Below, piece by piece: positions 53,196 through 60,795 of a stretch of DNA of 64,000 bases. The notes under the pieces are model-generated. The model worked only from the letters and a program-made list of their open reading frames with translations, made no database searches and had not been told where the DNA came from. Numbering within the stretch: the first letter of the stretch is position 1; the number at the start of each line of letters is the position of its first letter. The stretch comes from Actinomycetota bacterium (lineage in GTDB: Bacteria; Actinomycetota; Actinomycetes; S36-B12; FW305-bin1). Location: contig SCTR01000010.1 of the NCBI GenBank assembly GCA_004297305.1, forward strand, positions 1-64,000, read 5' to 3'. The position numbers were made by a program, and so were the translations under genes.

Positions 53196-53705
53196 ATGCG
53201 GGCAACGGTGGTCGGTGGCGTCGCGCTGGCCGGCGTGACAGGCCTGCTGACGGTGCTCGCCGCGGCACCGGCGGCGGCCCATACCCAGCTGCTCGATTCC
53301 CGGCCCGGCGACGGCGCCGTCCTCGCCACCGCGCCGGAAACGCTGACCCTCTCCTTCACCGACAGACTCATCGCGGAAGGCAGTTCGCTGGTGGCCGCCG
53401 GGCCGACCGGGGCGGTCCCGGTGACGGCGGTCGGCGTCACCGACCACGACCTCACCGCGCAGTGGCCGGCGACGGCCGGGACGGGCACCTTCCAGATCAC
53501 CTACCGGGTGGTGTCGGCCGACGGGCATCCGGTGACCGGGGCCATCAGCTTCACGGTGGGAGGCCCGTCGGATCCGGGCGGCACGCTGCGCGCGGACACC
53601 GGCGGGGTCGTCGTCACGGTGGCCGCGGTCGTGGTGGCGGTCGCCGTCGTCGTGGCGCTGCTGTGGACCCGGCGCCGTACTGCGAGCCGGCCGGACCGCC
53701 CGTGA
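53196..53705 (+). CDS. copC: CopC domain copper-binding protein
   Basis: A 169-residue exported protein. Signal peptide to about Ala28 (LAAAPAAA), so the mature protein starts with His29, the N-terminal ligand of the CopC copper site. LLDSRPGDGA, VVSADGHPVTGAISFTVGG carry the later His ligand. One C-terminal helix (~139-160) anchors it outside the membrane. It is coupled by GTGA to the copD-ctaG fusion, so it likely hands copper to it for uptake or oxidase assembly. Confidence 0.9.
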   Translation: MRATVVGGVALAGVTGLLTVLAAAPAAAHTQLLDSRPGDGAVLATAPETLTLSFTDRLIAEGSSLVAAGPTGAVPVTAVGVTDHDLTAQWPATAGTGTFQITYRVVSADGHPVTGAISFTVGGPSDPGGTLRADTGGVVVTVAAVVVAVAVVVALLWTRRRTASRPDRP

Positions 53706-55777
53706 CCAGCGCGAGTTCCGGAGCGACCGCAAACTCCGGCCAGAGCGGGACGGTGCCACGGGACGGAACTCCCGCCTCGGGGGGAACGCCCCCGTCGGGA
53801 GCGCGGCTCGCGCTCGGCCTGGGCGCGGTCGCGCTGCTGGCCCTGGTCGCGGCGCTGCTGGTCGGCGGCGGTCGCTACACCCCATTACCGGGCGGACTGC
53901 CGGACGCCGGCGCGGCGGTCGGCTGGGCGCTGCCGGTGGTCGACGCGATCGCACTGCTGGCGGCGGTGCTCTGCGTCGGCTGGTTGGTGTCGGCCGCGGT
54001 CCTGACCCCGCAGGGCCGGCACGGCGTGGTTTCCCCGCAGGGGCGCGCCGACCTGGTGCGCGCGGCGGTGGCCGCCGGCGTCTGGGCACTGGCCGCGGTG
54101 ATCAGCATCCCGCTCACCCTCGCCGACGCCCTCGGCGTCGGGTTGTCCGACGCGTTGGCGCGCGACACCTTCGCCACCTACGGCTGGTCGGTGACCGAGA
54201 ACGTCGCCAGCGCCGCCGGAGCCGTCATCGCGCTGATCGTCCTCGTCGGCGCGGTCACCACGTCGACGGTCGGCCTGGCCGGTGTCTGGGCGGTGTTGGC
54301 GCTCCTCGGTGTGGCCGGGACGGGCCTGGCCGGTCACGCCGCCAGCTACGGGTCGCACGACCTGGCGCTGACGTCCGGGGTGGTCCACGCCGCGGCCGCG
54401 GCCGTGTGGGTCGGGGGGCTCGCGGCGATGCTGCTGCACGGGTGGCGAGGCGATCCGGGCCTGCCCGCGTCGGTACGCCGCTTCGGCCGGCTCGCCACCG
54501 GGTGCGTGCTGGCCCTGGCACTGAGCGGGCTCGGGAACGCCTGGACCCGGCTGGACGATCCCGGTCAACTGCTGAGCACCGGCTACGGCCGGCTGGTCGT
54601 GGTGAAGACGGCCCTGCTGCTCTGTCTCGTCCTGGTGGCAGCCACGGTACGAACCCGGATCGCCCCGACGCTGGCGACGGGCGCCCCACGGCGCGACTTC
54701 CTGCGCTGGGCGACGTTGGAGATCGTCCTGCTGGCGACGGCGGTCGGCGTCGGTGAAGCGTTGACCCGCACTGCTTTCCCCCGGATCGAGGAGCCGCTGG
54801 CCACACCGGCGGAGAACCTTCTCGGCTTCGCCATGCCCGGCCCGCCGACCATCGGGTCGGTGACACTGGGCTGGTCGCCGCAGGTCCTCTGGCTGGCCGT
54901 GGCCGCGGTGTTGCTGGCCGGGTACGGCTGGGGCTGGCTGCGGCTGCGGCTGCGTGGCGACCACTGGCCGGTCGGCCGGCTGGTCTCGTGGCTGCTGGGG
55001 GCGGGCCTGCTGCTGTGGGCCACCAACTCTGGGCTGGCGACGTACGCCGAGGTGTCGCTCGGCTACCACATGTTGCAGCACATGGTGCTGTCGATGGCCG
55101 TCCCGATCCTGCTGGTCCTGGCTGCGCCGATCTCTCTGGCGCTGCGCGCGATAGCGCCCTCACCGGAGGGTGATCGCGGTCCCCGGGAGTGGATCGTGTG
55201 GGCGGTGCACACTCCGGTGGCCAAGGCGCTGGCGCATCCGGTGGTGGCGCTGTTGCTGTTCACCGCCGGCCTGTACGCGCTGTATTTCTCGCCGCTGTTC
55301 GCCCAGCTGATGCAGGGCCATGTCACCCACGTCCTCATGCAGGGCCATTTCCTGCTGGTGGGCCTGCTGTTCTACTGGATCGTCCTCGGCGTGGACCCCG
55401 GGCCCCGGGATATCCCTTACTGGGGCAGGCTGATCCTGGTCCTGGTGGCGATGGTGTTCCACGGGTTCTTCGCCATCGCGATCATGATGTCCAGTACCCC
55501 GCTGGGCGATACCTGGTTCGCCCAGGTACGGCCGGACTGGCTCGTCGATCCGTTGGCCGACACGTACCTCGGCGGCGGGATCGCGTGGGGTTTCGGCGAG
55601 ATTCCCACCATGATCGTGCTGGTGACGATCGCCGTGCAGTGGGCTCGCAGCGAGGAACGACTGGCACGACGGCTGGATCGGGCGGCCGACCGGGACGGGG
55701 ACGCGGAGTTGGCGGCGTACAACGAACGGCTGGCGCGCCTGGGGGCCCGCCACCAGCGGGCGCTCGACGAGCGCTGA
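53702..55777 (+). CDS. CopD / CtaG fusion, copper import and cytochrome c oxidase assembly
   Basis: A 691-residue polytopic membrane protein. The first ~370 residues are a CopD-type region with about eight or nine helices, containing LTSGVVHAAAAAVWVGGLAAML, in which histidine would bind copper. The last ~300 residues are a caa3 CtaG domain with SLGYHMLQHMVLSM, GHVTHVLMQGHFLLVG and a His-rich helix set. This fusion is known in actinobacteria. GTG start at 53702 overlaps the copC stop. Acts in the membrane, probably delivering copper to the oxidase. Confidence 0.92.
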   Translation: MTSASSGATANSGQSGTVPRDGTPASGGTPPSGARLALGLGAVALLALVAALLVGGGRYTPLPGGLPDAGAAVGWALPVVDAIALLAAVLCVGWLVSAAVLTPQGRHGVVSPQGRADLVRAAVAAGVWALAAVISIPLTLADALGVGLSDALARDTFATYGWSVTENVASAAGAVIALIVLVGAVTTSTVGLAGVWAVLALLGVAGTGLAGHAASYGSHDLALTSGVVHAAAAAVWVGGLAAMLLHGWRGDPGLPASVRRFGRLATGCVLALALSGLGNAWTRLDDPGQLLSTGYGRLVVVKTALLLCLVLVAATVRTRIAPTLATGAPRRDFLRWATLEIVLLATAVGVGEALTRTAFPRIEEPLATPAENLLGFAMPGPPTIGSVTLGWSPQVLWLAVAAVLLAGYGWGWLRLRLRGDHWPVGRLVSWLLGAGLLLWATNSGLATYAEVSLGYHMLQHMVLSMAVPILLVLAAPISLALRAIAPSPEGDRGPREWIVWAVHTPVAKALAHPVVALLLFTAGLYALYFSPLFAQLMQGHVTHVLMQGHFLLVGLLFYWIVLGVDPGPRDIPYWGRLILVLVAMVFHGFFAIAIMMSSTPLGDTWFAQVRPDWLVDPLADTYLGGGIAWGFGEIPTMIVLVTIAVQWARSEERLARRLDRAADRDGDAELAAYNERLARLGARHQRALDER

Positions 55778-55912: not shown

Positions 55913-57121
55913 TTACCGGCCGGGGTCACCTGATCGCCGCGGTTCGTTCCCTGGAATGCCCGATCGCACGAGTCGGAAGAACGCGCGGACCTCCGCGACG
56001 AACAGGTCCGGCTCCTCCATCGCGGCGAAATGACCGCCGCGGTCCAGCTGCGACCACCGCACGATGTTGGCGGTGCGCTCGGCCACCCGCCGCAGCGGCT
56101 GTACGACATCGGCCGGGAAGACCGCGACACCGGTGGGGACGGTCGTCGGCGGATGGGCCCGGAACCCGCCCGCACCGCGCACCTCGTGGTAGAGCCGCGC
56201 CGACGACGCGACCGTCCCGGTCAGCCAGTAGAGCATCACGTTGGTCAGCATGAGGTCCCGGTCGACGGCCTCCTCCGGGACTTCGGCGGCGTCGGTCCAC
56301 TCGCGGAACTGGTCGACGATCCACGCCAACTGGCCCACCGGGGAATCGGCCAGGCCGTAGGCCAGCGTCTGCGGCCGGGTCGCCTGCACCTTGAGGTAGC
56401 CGGACAGCTCCCGGCGGAAGTGGGCAGCACGCTGCATCGCCGCGCGTTCGGCCGGCGTCGGGACCTCCCCGGGCTCCAGCGGCCCGGTGGCCAGCATGTT
56501 GACGTGGACGCCGACGACGTGACCGGGGTCGGTGAGACCGAGTTCCCAGGAGATCCACGATCCCCAGTCGCCACCCTGCGCGCCGTACGCCGGATAGCCG
56601 AGCCGCTGCATCAGGACGGCCCACGCCGCGGCGATTCGCCGTACGTCCCAGCCGATCTCGTGAGTCGGACCGGATAGGCCGTAGCCCGGGATCGACGGGA
56701 TCACCAGGTGGAACGCGTCGCGCGGGTCGCCACCGTGGGCGCGGGGATCTCGCAACGGTTCGACGACGTCGAGGAACTCCACGACGGAGCCGGGCCACCC
56801 GTGGGTCAGGATCAACGGCAGCGCATCCGGTTCCGGCGAGCGGTGATGCAGGAAATGAACCCGCGCGCCGTCGATCGTCGTCGTGTGCTGGCCGAGTTCG
56901 TTGAGGCGTGACTCGAACCGGCGCCAGTCGTATCCGTCGCGCCAGTAGTCGGCCAGCTCGCGCAAGTAGGCACCCGGGACGCCGTAGCGCCATCCGACGC
57001 CGGGGATCTCGTCGGGCCAGCGCGTGGCGGCGATGCGGGCGCGCAGCTCGGCCAGTTCCGCCTCGGGGACCTCGAGGCGGAACGGCTCGATCCCGGACGT
57101 CCCGCGGGCAGGTTCGGTCAC
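55913..57121 (-). CDS. Epoxide hydrolase (alpha/beta hydrolase, EHN family)
   Basis: A 402-residue cytosolic hydrolase opening epoxides to diols. The N-terminal EHN domain is evident in IEPFRLEVPEAELAELRARI and WPDEIPG (11-41). HGWPGS (107-112) forms the oxyanion region, the nucleophile D185 lies in GGDWGS (183-188), and the His is in RGGHFAAME (~367-375). The GTG start overlaps the VOC gene stop as GTGA. The longer frame upstream runs inside the VOC gene. Paired with the VOC protein, a small detoxification operon is suggested. Confidence 0.92.
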   Translation of the reverse strand: MTEPARGTSGIEPFRLEVPEAELAELRARIAATRWPDEIPGVGWRYGVPGAYLRELADYWRDGYDWRRFESRLNELGQHTTTIDGARVHFLHHRSPEPDALPLILTHGWPGSVVEFLDVVEPLRDPRAHGGDPRDAFHLVIPSIPGYGLSGPTHEIGWDVRRIAAAWAVLMQRLGYPAYGAQGGDWGSWISWELGLTDPGHVVGVHVNMLATGPLEPGEVPTPAERAAMQRAAHFRRELSGYLKVQATRPQTLAYGLADSPVGQLAWIVDQFREWTDAAEVPEEAVDRDLMLTNVMLYWLTGTVASSARLYHEVRGAGGFRAHPPTTVPTGVAVFPADVVQPLRRVAERTANIVRWSQLDRGGHFAAMEEPDLFVAEVRAFFRLVRSGIPGNEPRRSGDPGR

Positions 57122-57603
57122 CTCGGCTGGGTGTACCACTCCGGCAGCAACTCCGGCATCTTCGCCTGTGGCATGTCGACGATTTCGACGAATCCGAACG
57201 AGAACTCGTGGAAGGCCGCTCGTACCGTCGCGATGTCGTCGGTCTCGTCGTCGGCACCCCGCAGCAGGGCCCAGTCCGACCCGGCGATCTCGGCGGACCG
57301 CCGGCCGAGGTGATCCACCCAGTAGCCGAGGTGGTGGAAACGCGGACGGTCGCCGGCCTCGAGCAGGGTCCCCGGGGCGCCTTCGAACAACTCGATGGCC
57401 GGCGCCGGACCGGACGAGTAGGCAACCCGCTGCGTCACGGTGGTGACGACGCCGTCCAGGTCCGGGAACCGGAAGCTCGCGTTCACGATCGGCCGCCACT
57501 GCACGCCGAGCGCCGTGGTGAGTTCGGCCATCGACTCCTCCAACGACGGCACGCTGAAACCGACGTGGTACGGGCCGTAGGCCCGGGCATCATGCTCGCT
57601 CAC
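57118..57603 (-). CDS. VOC family (glyoxalase-like) protein
   Basis: A 161-residue single-domain VOC protein. HVGFSVPSLEESMAELTTALGVQW (~13-36 in short pieces) and HHLGYWVDHL (~90-99) mark the two betaalphabetabetabeta halves, with Glu ligands possible in IELFEGAPG and FVEIVD. Metal or substrate is unknown. GTG start after GGGAGA. Coupled to the epoxide hydrolase. A 27-bp tandem repeat lies just upstream. Confidence 0.82.
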   Translation of the reverse strand: MSEHDARAYGPYHVGFSVPSLEESMAELTTALGVQWRPIVNASFRFPDLDGVVTTVTQRVAYSSGPAPAIELFEGAPGTLLEAGDRPRFHHLGYWVDHLGRRSAEIAGSDWALLRGADDETDDIATVRAAFHEFSFGFVEIVDMPQAKMPELLPEWYTQPR

Positions 57604-57829: not shown

Positions 57830-58435
57830 TCAGGAGCTACGCCGCAGTACCCGCTGCCGCGGCGGATCGGGTAGCGGCGGATGGCTGCCGGCACGAAATG
57901 CCTGCAGCATCAGGGCAACCAGTCGGCCCGAAGCGGCGGCAGCGTCATCCGGCGCTGCCCTGTCGACCACGGCGGCATTGCTGACCAGCAGCAGTTCGAG
58001 GTCCTGCAGCACGAAGTCGCGTCGCAGCGATCCGTCGGCCTGCGCCCTGCCGACGAGCTGCAGGAACGCCTCGGTCGATCGGGACCGGGCCTCGTCCAGT
58101 CCGCTCGCGTGTTCGAAGGACATCCGGAATACGTCGCGCAACCCGCGATCATCGCGCTGCATCTGACAGACCAGGCTGATGTACGAGGCAAGTCCCTGCC
58201 AGGGATCCGGCTCGGCCGCAGCGGCTTGCGCGGCATCGGCCATGGCCGCGATCGCCGGTTCGTAGCAGGCGGCGACCAGATCGGCCCGGGTGGGAAACCG
58301 CCGGTAGAGCGTCCCGATCCCGACACCGGCACGCGCCGCGAGGTCCTCCAGGGAGATCTGTACGCCACGGTCGCGGAAGTCCGCTCGGGCGATCGTGAGA
58401 ATGCGGTCACGATTGGCGAGCGCCTCTGGCCGCAT
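57830..58435 (-). CDS. TetR family transcriptional regulator
   Basis: A 201-residue repressor. ANRDRILTIARADFRDRG and ISLEDLAARAGVGIGTLYRRFPTRADLVAA (~27-56) are the helix-turn-helix, and the C-terminal bundle carries ligand binding. ATG at 58435 with GGAAGG upstream is favoured over a long shadow frame. It is divergent from the dioxygenase gene and upstream of the VOC/epoxide hydrolase genes on its own strand, so it may control either. Confidence 0.9.
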   Translation of the reverse strand: MRPEALANRDRILTIARADFRDRGVQISLEDLAARAGVGIGTLYRRFPTRADLVAACYEPAIAAMADAAQAAAAEPDPWQGLASYISLVCQMQRDDRGLRDVFRMSFEHASGLDEARSRSTEAFLQLVGRAQADGSLRRDFVLQDLELLLVSNAAVVDRAAPDDAAAASGRLVALMLQAFRAGSHPPLPDPPRQRVLRRSS

Positions 58436-58501: not shown

Positions 58502-58595
58502 ACCAACCAGTCGCCGGAGGCTGCCTCCGCCGACCGGGGGGACGTCAACCGTTCCCGACCTCGCCGAGTCCGGGACCTGCCTGCGAGGAGGACCC

Positions 58596-60341
58596 GTGGC
58601 CACCCTCACGTCCACGCCCGGCGTCGCGACGACCCCGCGACGGCTCGTCCTGCCTGACGCGATCCCGTCGGACGAGGTACGGCGGTGGCGCGCCGCGGTC
58701 ACGGTCGCTGCCGACACCGGCGCGGGATTTCGTCCCGTGGCCGGTGGGCCGGCCGAACCGGACCTGCGCGGCCTGCTGGCGCTGGGAGCGCCGTTCGGCA
58801 CAGTGGCTGGACATCCGCTCGCGCTGGATGCGGTGCGGCAGTTACTGATCCGGCCATCGAGCTGGGACGGCGGACACGGCGGCCACGACGACCTGCGGCT
58901 GGCCGAGCTGTGCGCGTTCACCGCCACGCGTTCCGACGCCGACCAGGCCTTCTGGAGCCTGCAGGCCGCGACCAATCCGGCACCGTGGACGCAGTGCACC
59001 ACCGTCGTCGTCCACTGGGCCCTGACCGACCTGGACCTCGACGCCGGCGCGGTCGAGATCGTCGGCGACACCGATTCGGGGCCCGACGCGCCACCGGCAG
59101 ACAAGCAACCCACCGAGCGGCTACGCGTGGCCGCCGGTTCGATGATCGCGCTCGACGGCCGACTGTGGCACCGGATCGGCGCCGGCATGCCCACCGATGC
59201 GGTCCTCAGCGCCTGGTACACCGCGCCGTACCTGCGAGCCGCGGTGAACTGGAACACCGTCATTCCCGAGGTCGTCGCGCGGACGATCGATCCCGACGTG
59301 CTGCGGCTCATCGGGTATGTCTACGGGAACTCCGGCGACATGGTCGTCGTACCGCACCGCTCGCCGGCGTTGCGCGCGCTCGGCCAGACACCTGCCGGTA
59401 GCGAGGTGTCGGGGGCCGAAACTGGCCGAAACGCAGTCGCCGGTGCGTCCGACGACTCTGGCATGCCCGATCGCGGCACCGTCACCGTCGGAATTGCGGC
59501 CGCCGATGATGCGTCGGATCGCGCTGCTGCCGTGCCGTTCCGGCGTCGCCGGATCGACCACGTCGACACGGCGACGGCAGTAGGACAGTTCGAGGCCGAG
59601 GGCTGGTGCGCGGTTCCCGGCGCCTTGTCGGCCGAGGACGTCCGTCGCTGTCGACAGGCACTGGACCGAGCAATCGGACAGCAGGAACGAGAAGGCGCGG
59701 ACAGCCACTGGCGGTTGGATCCGAACGAGGCCAATGTCCGCGTCGCCTATCTGCTGAACTGGGACTCGTGCTTCCGGGAACTGGTCCTGCACCCTCTCGC
59801 CGCGGTCTTCGCTGGTCTGCTCGGTGAGGGCTTCGTCCTGATGAGCAGCGCGTCGAACACCGCACGGCCCGGGGCCGGTTCCATGTCGCTGCATTGCGAC
59901 CAGGTCTCCACGGCGACTCCGTGGGACACCATGGTGACGATGAACGTCGCCTGGCTGCTGGACGACACGTACGCCGACAACGGCGCGACGCGGATCATCC
60001 CGGGCAGTCACCGCTGGCGCTCCGCCGAGGTGGCGGATGTCGCCGAACGCTTCTCCTACGACGACCTGCTGCCGCTCGAGGGACCGGCCGGCACGATGCT
60101 CGCCTGGGACGGCCGGCTGTGGCACACCGCCGGCAAGAACGTCACTGCCGGACGACCCGACGAGAGCGAGCGCGCCGTCGTCCTGAACTACTACGGCGCC
60201 CGGTCCATGCGCAGTGCAGTCAACTGGAACTCCGTGCTGCTGCCCGAGGTGCAGCCGGTGGTCGACGACGAACTGGCCGAGCTCCTCGGGTTCCGCTGGG
60301 GCACAGCAGGTCCGCTTCGGCGCGCGCCGCGCAGACCATAG
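58596..60341 (+). CDS. Two-domain PhyH-like dioxygenase with a dead first half
   Basis: A 581-residue protein of two phytanoyl-CoA dioxygenase-like halves joined by an Ala/Asp-rich linker (~270-310). The C-terminal half has the Fe(II) facial triad H433-x-D435 (in SLHCDQVST) and H510 (in GRLWHTAG). The N-terminal half keeps the surrounding strands, the matching GRLWH at 188-192, and AVNWNTVIPEV, which mirrors AVNWNSVLLPEV of the second half, but SLQ replaces HxD, so its iron site is lost. GAGGAG precedes the GTG. Fe/2-oxoglutarate hydroxylation or halogenation of an unknown substrate is expected. Divergent from a TetR gene. Confidence 0.88.
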   Translation: MATLTSTPGVATTPRRLVLPDAIPSDEVRRWRAAVTVAADTGAGFRPVAGGPAEPDLRGLLALGAPFGTVAGHPLALDAVRQLLIRPSSWDGGHGGHDDLRLAELCAFTATRSDADQAFWSLQAATNPAPWTQCTTVVVHWALTDLDLDAGAVEIVGDTDSGPDAPPADKQPTERLRVAAGSMIALDGRLWHRIGAGMPTDAVLSAWYTAPYLRAAVNWNTVIPEVVARTIDPDVLRLIGYVYGNSGDMVVVPHRSPALRALGQTPAGSEVSGAETGRNAVAGASDDSGMPDRGTVTVGIAAADDASDRAAAVPFRRRRIDHVDTATAVGQFEAEGWCAVPGALSAEDVRRCRQALDRAIGQQEREGADSHWRLDPNEANVRVAYLLNWDSCFRELVLHPLAAVFAGLLGEGFVLMSSASNTARPGAGSMSLHCDQVSTATPWDTMVTMNVAWLLDDTYADNGATRIIPGSHRWRSAEVADVAERFSYDDLLPLEGPAGTMLAWDGRLWHTAGKNVTAGRPDESERAVVLNYYGARSMRSAVNWNSVLLPEVQPVVDDELAELLGFRWGTAGPLRRAPRRP

Positions 60342-60399: not shown

Positions 60400-60795
60400 C
60401 TAGGCGCCGTACTCCTCATCGGCGACCTGGCCGAACCAGACGACGACCTGGCCGCTTTCGTCGGCCTCCTGCATGGCGACGTGCGCCATGAAGCGATCCG
60501 GTGTCGCGCCATGCCAATGCTCCTCACCGGGCTCGATGTACACGACGTCCCCAGGGCGAATCTGCTGGACGCCGCCACCTCGGGTACCGACCAGGCCGAT
60601 CCCGTCGGTGACGTACAAGGTCTGACCCTTGGGGTGCAGATGCCAGGCGGTGCGTGAGCCGGGTGCGAACCGGACATGGGCACAACCGATCGCCGACTGC
60701 TCGTCCGGGGTACGAATGCTGTCGATCTGCACGGTGCCGGTGAACTGCGACGATGCGCCGGGCGCTGTCCGGCCGCCGCTGACGGTGAATTTCAT
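60400..60795 (-). CDS. Cupin domain protein (Mn/Fe hydroxynitrile lyase-like family)
   Basis: A 131-residue single cupin. Metal ligands are likely H52, H54 and Q58 in WHLHPKGQTL and a His in EEHWHGA (91-97). The sequence family includes bacterial cupins described as hydroxynitrile lyases and ChrR-like proteins, but the natural substrate is unknown. ATG start with GGAAGG. Convergent with the dioxygenase gene and divergent from the patatin gene. Confidence 0.85.
   Translation of the reverse strand: MKFTVSGGRTAPGASSQFTGTVQIDSIRTPDEQSAIGCAHVRFAPGSRTAWHLHPKGQTLYVTDGIGLVGTRGGGVQQIRPGDVVYIEPGEEHWHGATPDRFMAHVAMQEADESGQVVVWFGQVADEEYGA

Follow-up and report, generated by a model that had tools for sequence, protein, structure and literature searches.

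A single bacterial gene was found to encode two consecutive PhyH halves in one chain, the second (C half) with an intact active site and the first (N half) without most residues of the family chemistry. We give about even odds (a probability of roughly 0.5) to the reading that the N half serves as a tethered non-catalytic partner domain of the C half. This reading is drawn from the homology of the halves, their pairing in a tree, the AVNWN segment common to both, and the losses of the N half as against the intact C half. It is also drawn from the predicted fold of the N half and its open coding character, and from analogy with the PrhA and AusE homodimers, TlxI/TlxJ and TalA, as far as the available text of the reports describes them. 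The gene lies in the window, by which we mean the whole stretch of 64,000 nucleotides that was analysed, and has the following layout.

58596..60341, + strand: two-half PhyH protein, 581 amino acids, GTG start, stop codon included, a single open frame
58596..59363, + strand: N half, residues 1-256, PhyH domain, with H192 in DGRLWH and AVNWN (216-220) kept
59364..59549, + strand: linker, residues 257-318 (limits approximate), between both homology regions, third-position GC down to 0.71
59550..60341, + strand: C half, residues 319-581, PhyH domain, with H433, D435, H510, R526 and PGSH (469-472) intact

A Shine-Dalgarno sequence graded as strong (GAGGAGG, 58584-58590) stands 5 bases ahead of the GTG codon at 58596, and the frame is uninterrupted within a contig of 341,920 bases. 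In a Pfam profile search of the genome, the C half matched PhyH (PF05721) with 91.2 bits over profile positions 1-209 of 213. The N half scored 22.7 bits in the same search and 22.2 bits when scanned as a protein, which is barely above the curated cut-off of 22 bits. Assignment of both halves to the PhyH family, as made in the preliminary description, is borne out by these scores together with the match of the N-half model to PhyH structures. The profile search returned no other PF05721 match in the 2.68-Mb genome, and the two-half gene is thus its sole PhyH gene by this method. The N half had also been called a decayed copy; the term suits its active site but not the gene, since the N half is free of stop codons and its third-position GC is 0.867 vs 0.840 in the C half.

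All of the expected active-site residues are present in the C half: H433 and D435 (HCD at 433), H510 and R526. From general knowledge of the family, we take HxD...H to be the iron triad and the arginine to bind 2-oxoglutarate (2OG). The retention of H433, D435 and H510, noted previously, was confirmed; these residues, R526 and PGSH are invariant in a 10-row alignment, two rows of which are the two-half protein itself. The N half has neither the triad nor the 2OG-binding arginine: R526 faces a gap, and only the distal histidine survives (H192, corresponding to H510). The counterparts of HxD are S121/Q123 in the MAFFT alignment or W120/L122 in a pairwise alignment, with no His or Asp either way. 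Therefore, the earlier statement that SLQ takes the place of HxD stands as regards the SLQ at 121 and the missing His and Asp, but the exact counterpart residues vary with the alignment. PGSH occurs only at 469 and ERAVV, which carries R526, only at 525, with no N-half copy of either.

Sixteen invariant positions were defined from the same 10-row alignment, in which the two rows of the two-half protein make the C half complete by construction. The N half keeps six of them (W141, G151, A180, G181, H192 and G240) and is without the other ten, namely the HxD pair, R526, PGSH, T465, P497 and G336 in C-half numbering; it is short of the fold start, with a gap opposite G336. Because the ten include HxD, the arginine and PGSH, the chemistry side appears to be gone, and the N half is, as judged from sequence and model, a PhyH member by descent and fold without the family chemistry. 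In the halogenase-type variant of the triad, HxG/A, the first His is kept and the Asp is replaced by Gly or Ala; this variant was ruled out for the N half, where the first His is also missing. A loose check found an H-x-D/E string somewhere in all 54 single-domain relatives. The loss of the 2OG-binding arginine and PGSH from the N half, and its retention of distal H192, had been left out of the earlier reading.

Homology between the two halves is clear from direct comparison. BLASTP aligned them with 68.2 bits (E 8e-18; 80 of 261 columns identical, 31%), and their Smith-Waterman score was 196; when the C half was shuffled 2000 times, the scores averaged 36.9 (standard deviation 6.0) and did not exceed 74. 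The matching segments reported earlier were located at residues 188 and 506 (GRLWH) and 216 and 541 (AVNWN). The best-kept segment lies around DGRLWH (19 of 36 residues identical), with 33-34% identity elsewhere. Both halves contain AVNWN but not one of the 54 single-domain relatives does; four of these (L088-L091) have ENW at this place. When the N half was searched against the phylum (best five or fewer candidates per genome), its top match besides itself was its own C half, with 54.2 bits against 40.4 for the next. The halves are sisters in a 25-row tree with a support of 82/89, short of decisive, on branches of 2.65 (N half) and 0.96 (C half), whereas a 47-row tree without the nearest proteobacterial relatives leaves the N half unplaced on a branch longer than 4. 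The half-half alignment, the common AVNWN and the tree pairing are best read as the outcome of the internal duplication proposed earlier, after which the N half changed fast, though this is not proven.

The N half modelled alone gave a pTM of 0.74 and a mean pLDDT of 68.5, from an input alignment of nine relatives that included the C half and active family members; the model is weakest at residues 1-11, 47-50, 88-97, 110-117 and 245-262. A Foldseek search against the PDB returned PhyH-type structures as the best matches (8zyb_D, TlxI (7vbq_B), SptF, PrhA, AndA and FtmOx1; E 9e-9), with TlxI in rank 2. In VIA-align, the model matched 8zyb_D with Z 18.2 (217 residues aligned, rmsd 3.4) and TlxI with Z 17.4. 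The top rows are tied within Z 1, with TlxI no better than active family members, and therefore the fold is not specific for a TlxI-like role. Structure prediction, proposed earlier as the check on the N half, thus yielded a PhyH jelly-roll fold (pTM 0.74, Z 17-18) and not some other fold. The full-length model is poor (mean pLDDT 47.5, pTM 0.44, residues 1-317 below 50) because few aligned sequences cover the N half.

Among solved structures, the relatives of the C half include PrhA, AusE, AndA, SptF and TlxJ. The nearest sequence relatives found are 31-38% identical to it and come from a Sphingomonadaceae MAG (L089), a Pseudomonadales MAG (L088) and the same class (L005); each has one domain with HxD and no AVNWN, whereas the two-half protein has two domains with AVNWN. 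PF05721 was matched in 253 of 394 genomes of the class (strong matches listed). A search for other proteins with the two-half layout, suggested in the preliminary description, found none in the sets searched. With the whole protein as query, no second case was seen in 60 relatives, 394 class genomes and 166 order genomes, and matches besides the gene itself covered only residues from 305 on; these genome sets overlap and are not additive, and the best three candidates per genome (class set) or the best eight or fewer (order set) were scored. The N half as query found none in 396 phylum genomes (best five or fewer candidates per genome). Across 57 loci with 1142 frames, five of them the gene itself, no other frame had two distinct sites of similarity to the halves.

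Searches of public contigs with a few short peptide patterns gave no relative in 31 stretches and five relatives, all single-domain, in 220 stretches. Viral contigs yielded 13 relatives in one search, again all single-domain, and none in the other viral-contig searches; 43 plasmid records matched, none of them over more than 80% of the query. No ortholog of the two-half protein was found in the sets searched. The layout search covered the relatives, the class, order and phylum genomes, the public and viral contigs and the plasmids given above, and absence of a second two-half protein from these sets is no proof of uniqueness. Long frames considered as two-domain candidates (L012, L019, L020, L039, L048, L053 and others) were rejected with one PhyH match each. 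In two proteobacterial contigs a second PhyH-like gene adjoins the single-domain relative (L091, 5016-5819, - strand; L092, 4571-5464, + strand). A split active-dead pair was rejected at these loci, since the second PhyH-like neighbor retains HxD (WHQD) and is not a dead partner. Among the literature matches listed, none dealt with a bacterial fusion of two PhyH domains, in a search with most subscription journals outside its scope.

Pairs of an active and a dead oxygenase are already known in fungi and other eukaryotes, and the present protein looks like a bacterial variant of these. In Talaromyces purpureogenus, TlxI/TlxJ and TlxC/TlxA each combine an active PhyH-type Fe/2OG oxygenase with an incompetent homolog, as appears from the sequence to be the case here. 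According to the available text of the report, TlxI is without the 2OG-binding arginine and catalytically incompetent, the kcat/Km of TlxJ rises from 0.02 to 1.63 per min per uM with TlxI, and loop B' of TlxI is essential for substrate binding (PMC12141560). TlxI and TlxJ, however, are two separate fungal proteins of a meroterpenoid cluster, whereas here a single bacterial chain carries the dead half first; where TlxI has lost the arginine, the N half has lost HxD besides. TalA of Talaromyces pinophilus is mentioned in a review as the fusion enzyme corresponding to TlxI-J (PMC11880133); by that mention it would, like the two-half protein, unite an active half and a helper half within a single chain. 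TalA is fungal, whereas the protein described here is bacterial and its halves look like products of internal duplication.

In the available text on OGFOD1, a catalytic DSBH domain and a packed metal-free DSBH domain form one chain, for which the authors suggest duplication with loss of catalysis and a role of the second domain in substrate or partner recognition, stabilisation or oligomerisation; the subfamily is called eukaryote-only (PMC4396695). OGFOD1/Tpa1p thus resembles the two-half protein in its linker-joined catalytic and metal-site-free DSBH domains and proposed duplication origin, but it is a eukaryotic prolyl hydroxylase, not PhyH, with the catalytic half first. AndA, AusE, PrhA and SptF have the same PhyH-type fold and are among the nearest solved relatives by sequence. 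PrhA and AusE are described as homodimers with an interface of about 1500 A2 (PMC5760668, available text). Homodimers of AndA, AusE, PrhA and SptF pair two identical active subunits, whereas the present protein has one active and one dead half. We conclude that the two-half protein is a bacterial variant of a catalytic oxygenase with a dead twin, and not a new kind of system.

A mechanism can be proposed along these lines. The gene of a PhyH-family Fe(II)/2-oxoglutarate oxygenase would have duplicated in frame; the second copy apparently stayed catalytic, and the first has lost two iron ligands, the 2OG-binding arginine and PGSH but still has DGRLWH, AVNWN and a predicted jelly-roll fold. The N half may then pack against the C half like a dimer partner that is permanently attached and does no catalysis, steadying it and perhaps completing its substrate pocket, as TlxI does for TlxJ in fungi, so that two DSBH domains would share one working site. 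In a profile alignment, AVNWN aligns to the stretch around Met241 of PrhA, a residue number deduced from differences among its three chains; in PrhA and AusE, residue 241 is part of the substrate-pocket lining (PMC5760668, available text). Since AVNWN is identical in both halves, a role of the N-half copy at the pocket or interface would fit. The binding or regulatory role suggested in the preliminary description is plausible. Against a partner domain, the full-length model is too poor to predict a half-half contact, the N half is without the fold start, and the larger tree leaves it on its very long branch.

In a bolder version, which we offer tentatively as possible but short of probable, the bacterium would have reached the TlxI-J/TalA arrangement independently: in-frame PhyH duplication, an obligate single-chain pseudo-dimer, a dead N half that contributes to the pocket or gates the working site, and the only PhyH gene of the genome under its own TetR switch. 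If true, helper-dependent PhyH oxygenases also arise in bacteria, through internal duplication; a single chain that can be expressed and cut could help to show what a dead oxygenase domain contributes; and degenerate PhyH neighbors or fusions would deserve a look before dismissal as pseudogenes.

Other roles of the N half have to be weighed against that of a partner domain. It could be a recruitment or recognition domain that binds substrate or partner, a role suggested for the C-terminal domain of OGFOD1/Tpa1, which is likewise non-catalytic, and the linker of about 60 residues permits either arrangement. The chain of OGFOD1, with its suggested recognition role, provides a precedent, but its domain order is opposite, its subfamily is eukaryote-only in the available text and not PhyH (PMC4396695), and the two-half protein gives no sign of a protein or nucleic-acid substrate; we consider such a role somewhat improbable, and it would not be mutually exclusive with that of a partner domain. 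The N half could instead act as a ligand sensor, with a metabolite in its emptied 2OG pocket gating the C half. The model shows an intact barrel, and the distal His and AVNWN are kept, yet a single sequence defines no conserved replacement ligand set, and we regard a sensor as quite unlikely.

The N half might also be a functionless relic, kept solely because any stop codon or frameshift in it would also remove the active half downstream. Its faster evolution (branch 2.65 vs 0.96), its ten missing invariant positions and the lack of the layout in any other genome of the sets searched agree with this, and the polar effect alone could hold the frame open; the identity around GRLWH (19/36) and the normal coding composition of the N half speak against it, though not strongly, and we regard a relic as unlikely. 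Very improbable, finally, is an origin by fusion of two different PhyH genes or by assembly error in place of internal duplication. The 47-row tree did not pair the halves, their pairing in the 25-row tree is not decisive, and the gene is carried by a single genome in the sets searched. However, in the phylum search the N half matched its own C half best, AVNWN is common to both, the frame is open inside a long contig, and with no further PhyH match, the genome offers no obvious second source for a fusion.

The genomic neighborhood of the two-half gene includes the following features.

57830..58435, - strand: divergent neighbor, TetR-family regulator of 201 amino acids (PF00440 38.4 bits, PF21597 34.2 bits)
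57118..57603, - strand: Glyoxalase/VOC-like protein (PF13669 44.8 bits)
55913..57136, - strand: epoxide-hydrolase-type alpha/beta hydrolase, start approximate (PF06441 134 bits, PF00561 36.7 bits)
60400-60795, - strand: small cupin, downstream (NCBIfam (R)-mandelonitrile lyase 164.5 bits, cut-off 140)
58507..58537, no strand: palindrome, candidate operator between the TetR and PhyH genes, 13/15 pairs with a 1-nt centre

The divergent TetR regulator and the nearby palindrome probably control the PhyH gene. Of 1000 dinucleotide-shuffled versions of the 160-bp intergenic stretch, 14 contained a palindrome scoring as well, and the window has equally good palindromes at three further sites; therefore the palindrome is a candidate operator only. 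Its 25-bp core has no other match with two or fewer mismatches genome-wide, and two others with three. Besides the cupin, a patatin-like gene and an NADPH:quinone-type reductase lie downstream. The neighboring hydrolase and VOC genes give a faint hint that the substrate may be small and hydrophobic. Two specific enzyme assignments were rejected, as NCBIfam scores are 19.2 bits for ectoine hydroxylase (cut-off 336.5) and 15.3 bits for methylphosphonate hydroxylase (cut-off 500). The neighboring genes are of mixed kinds, and no biosynthetic cluster was recognised among those tested; many frames at 38-53 kb are without a Pfam match. A second strong palindrome (57053-57086, 13/15 pairs) lies close to where the VOC and epoxide-hydrolase genes meet, and at 53462-55777 (+ strand) a CopD domain and a CtaG cytochrome oxidase assembly domain are fused in one frame.
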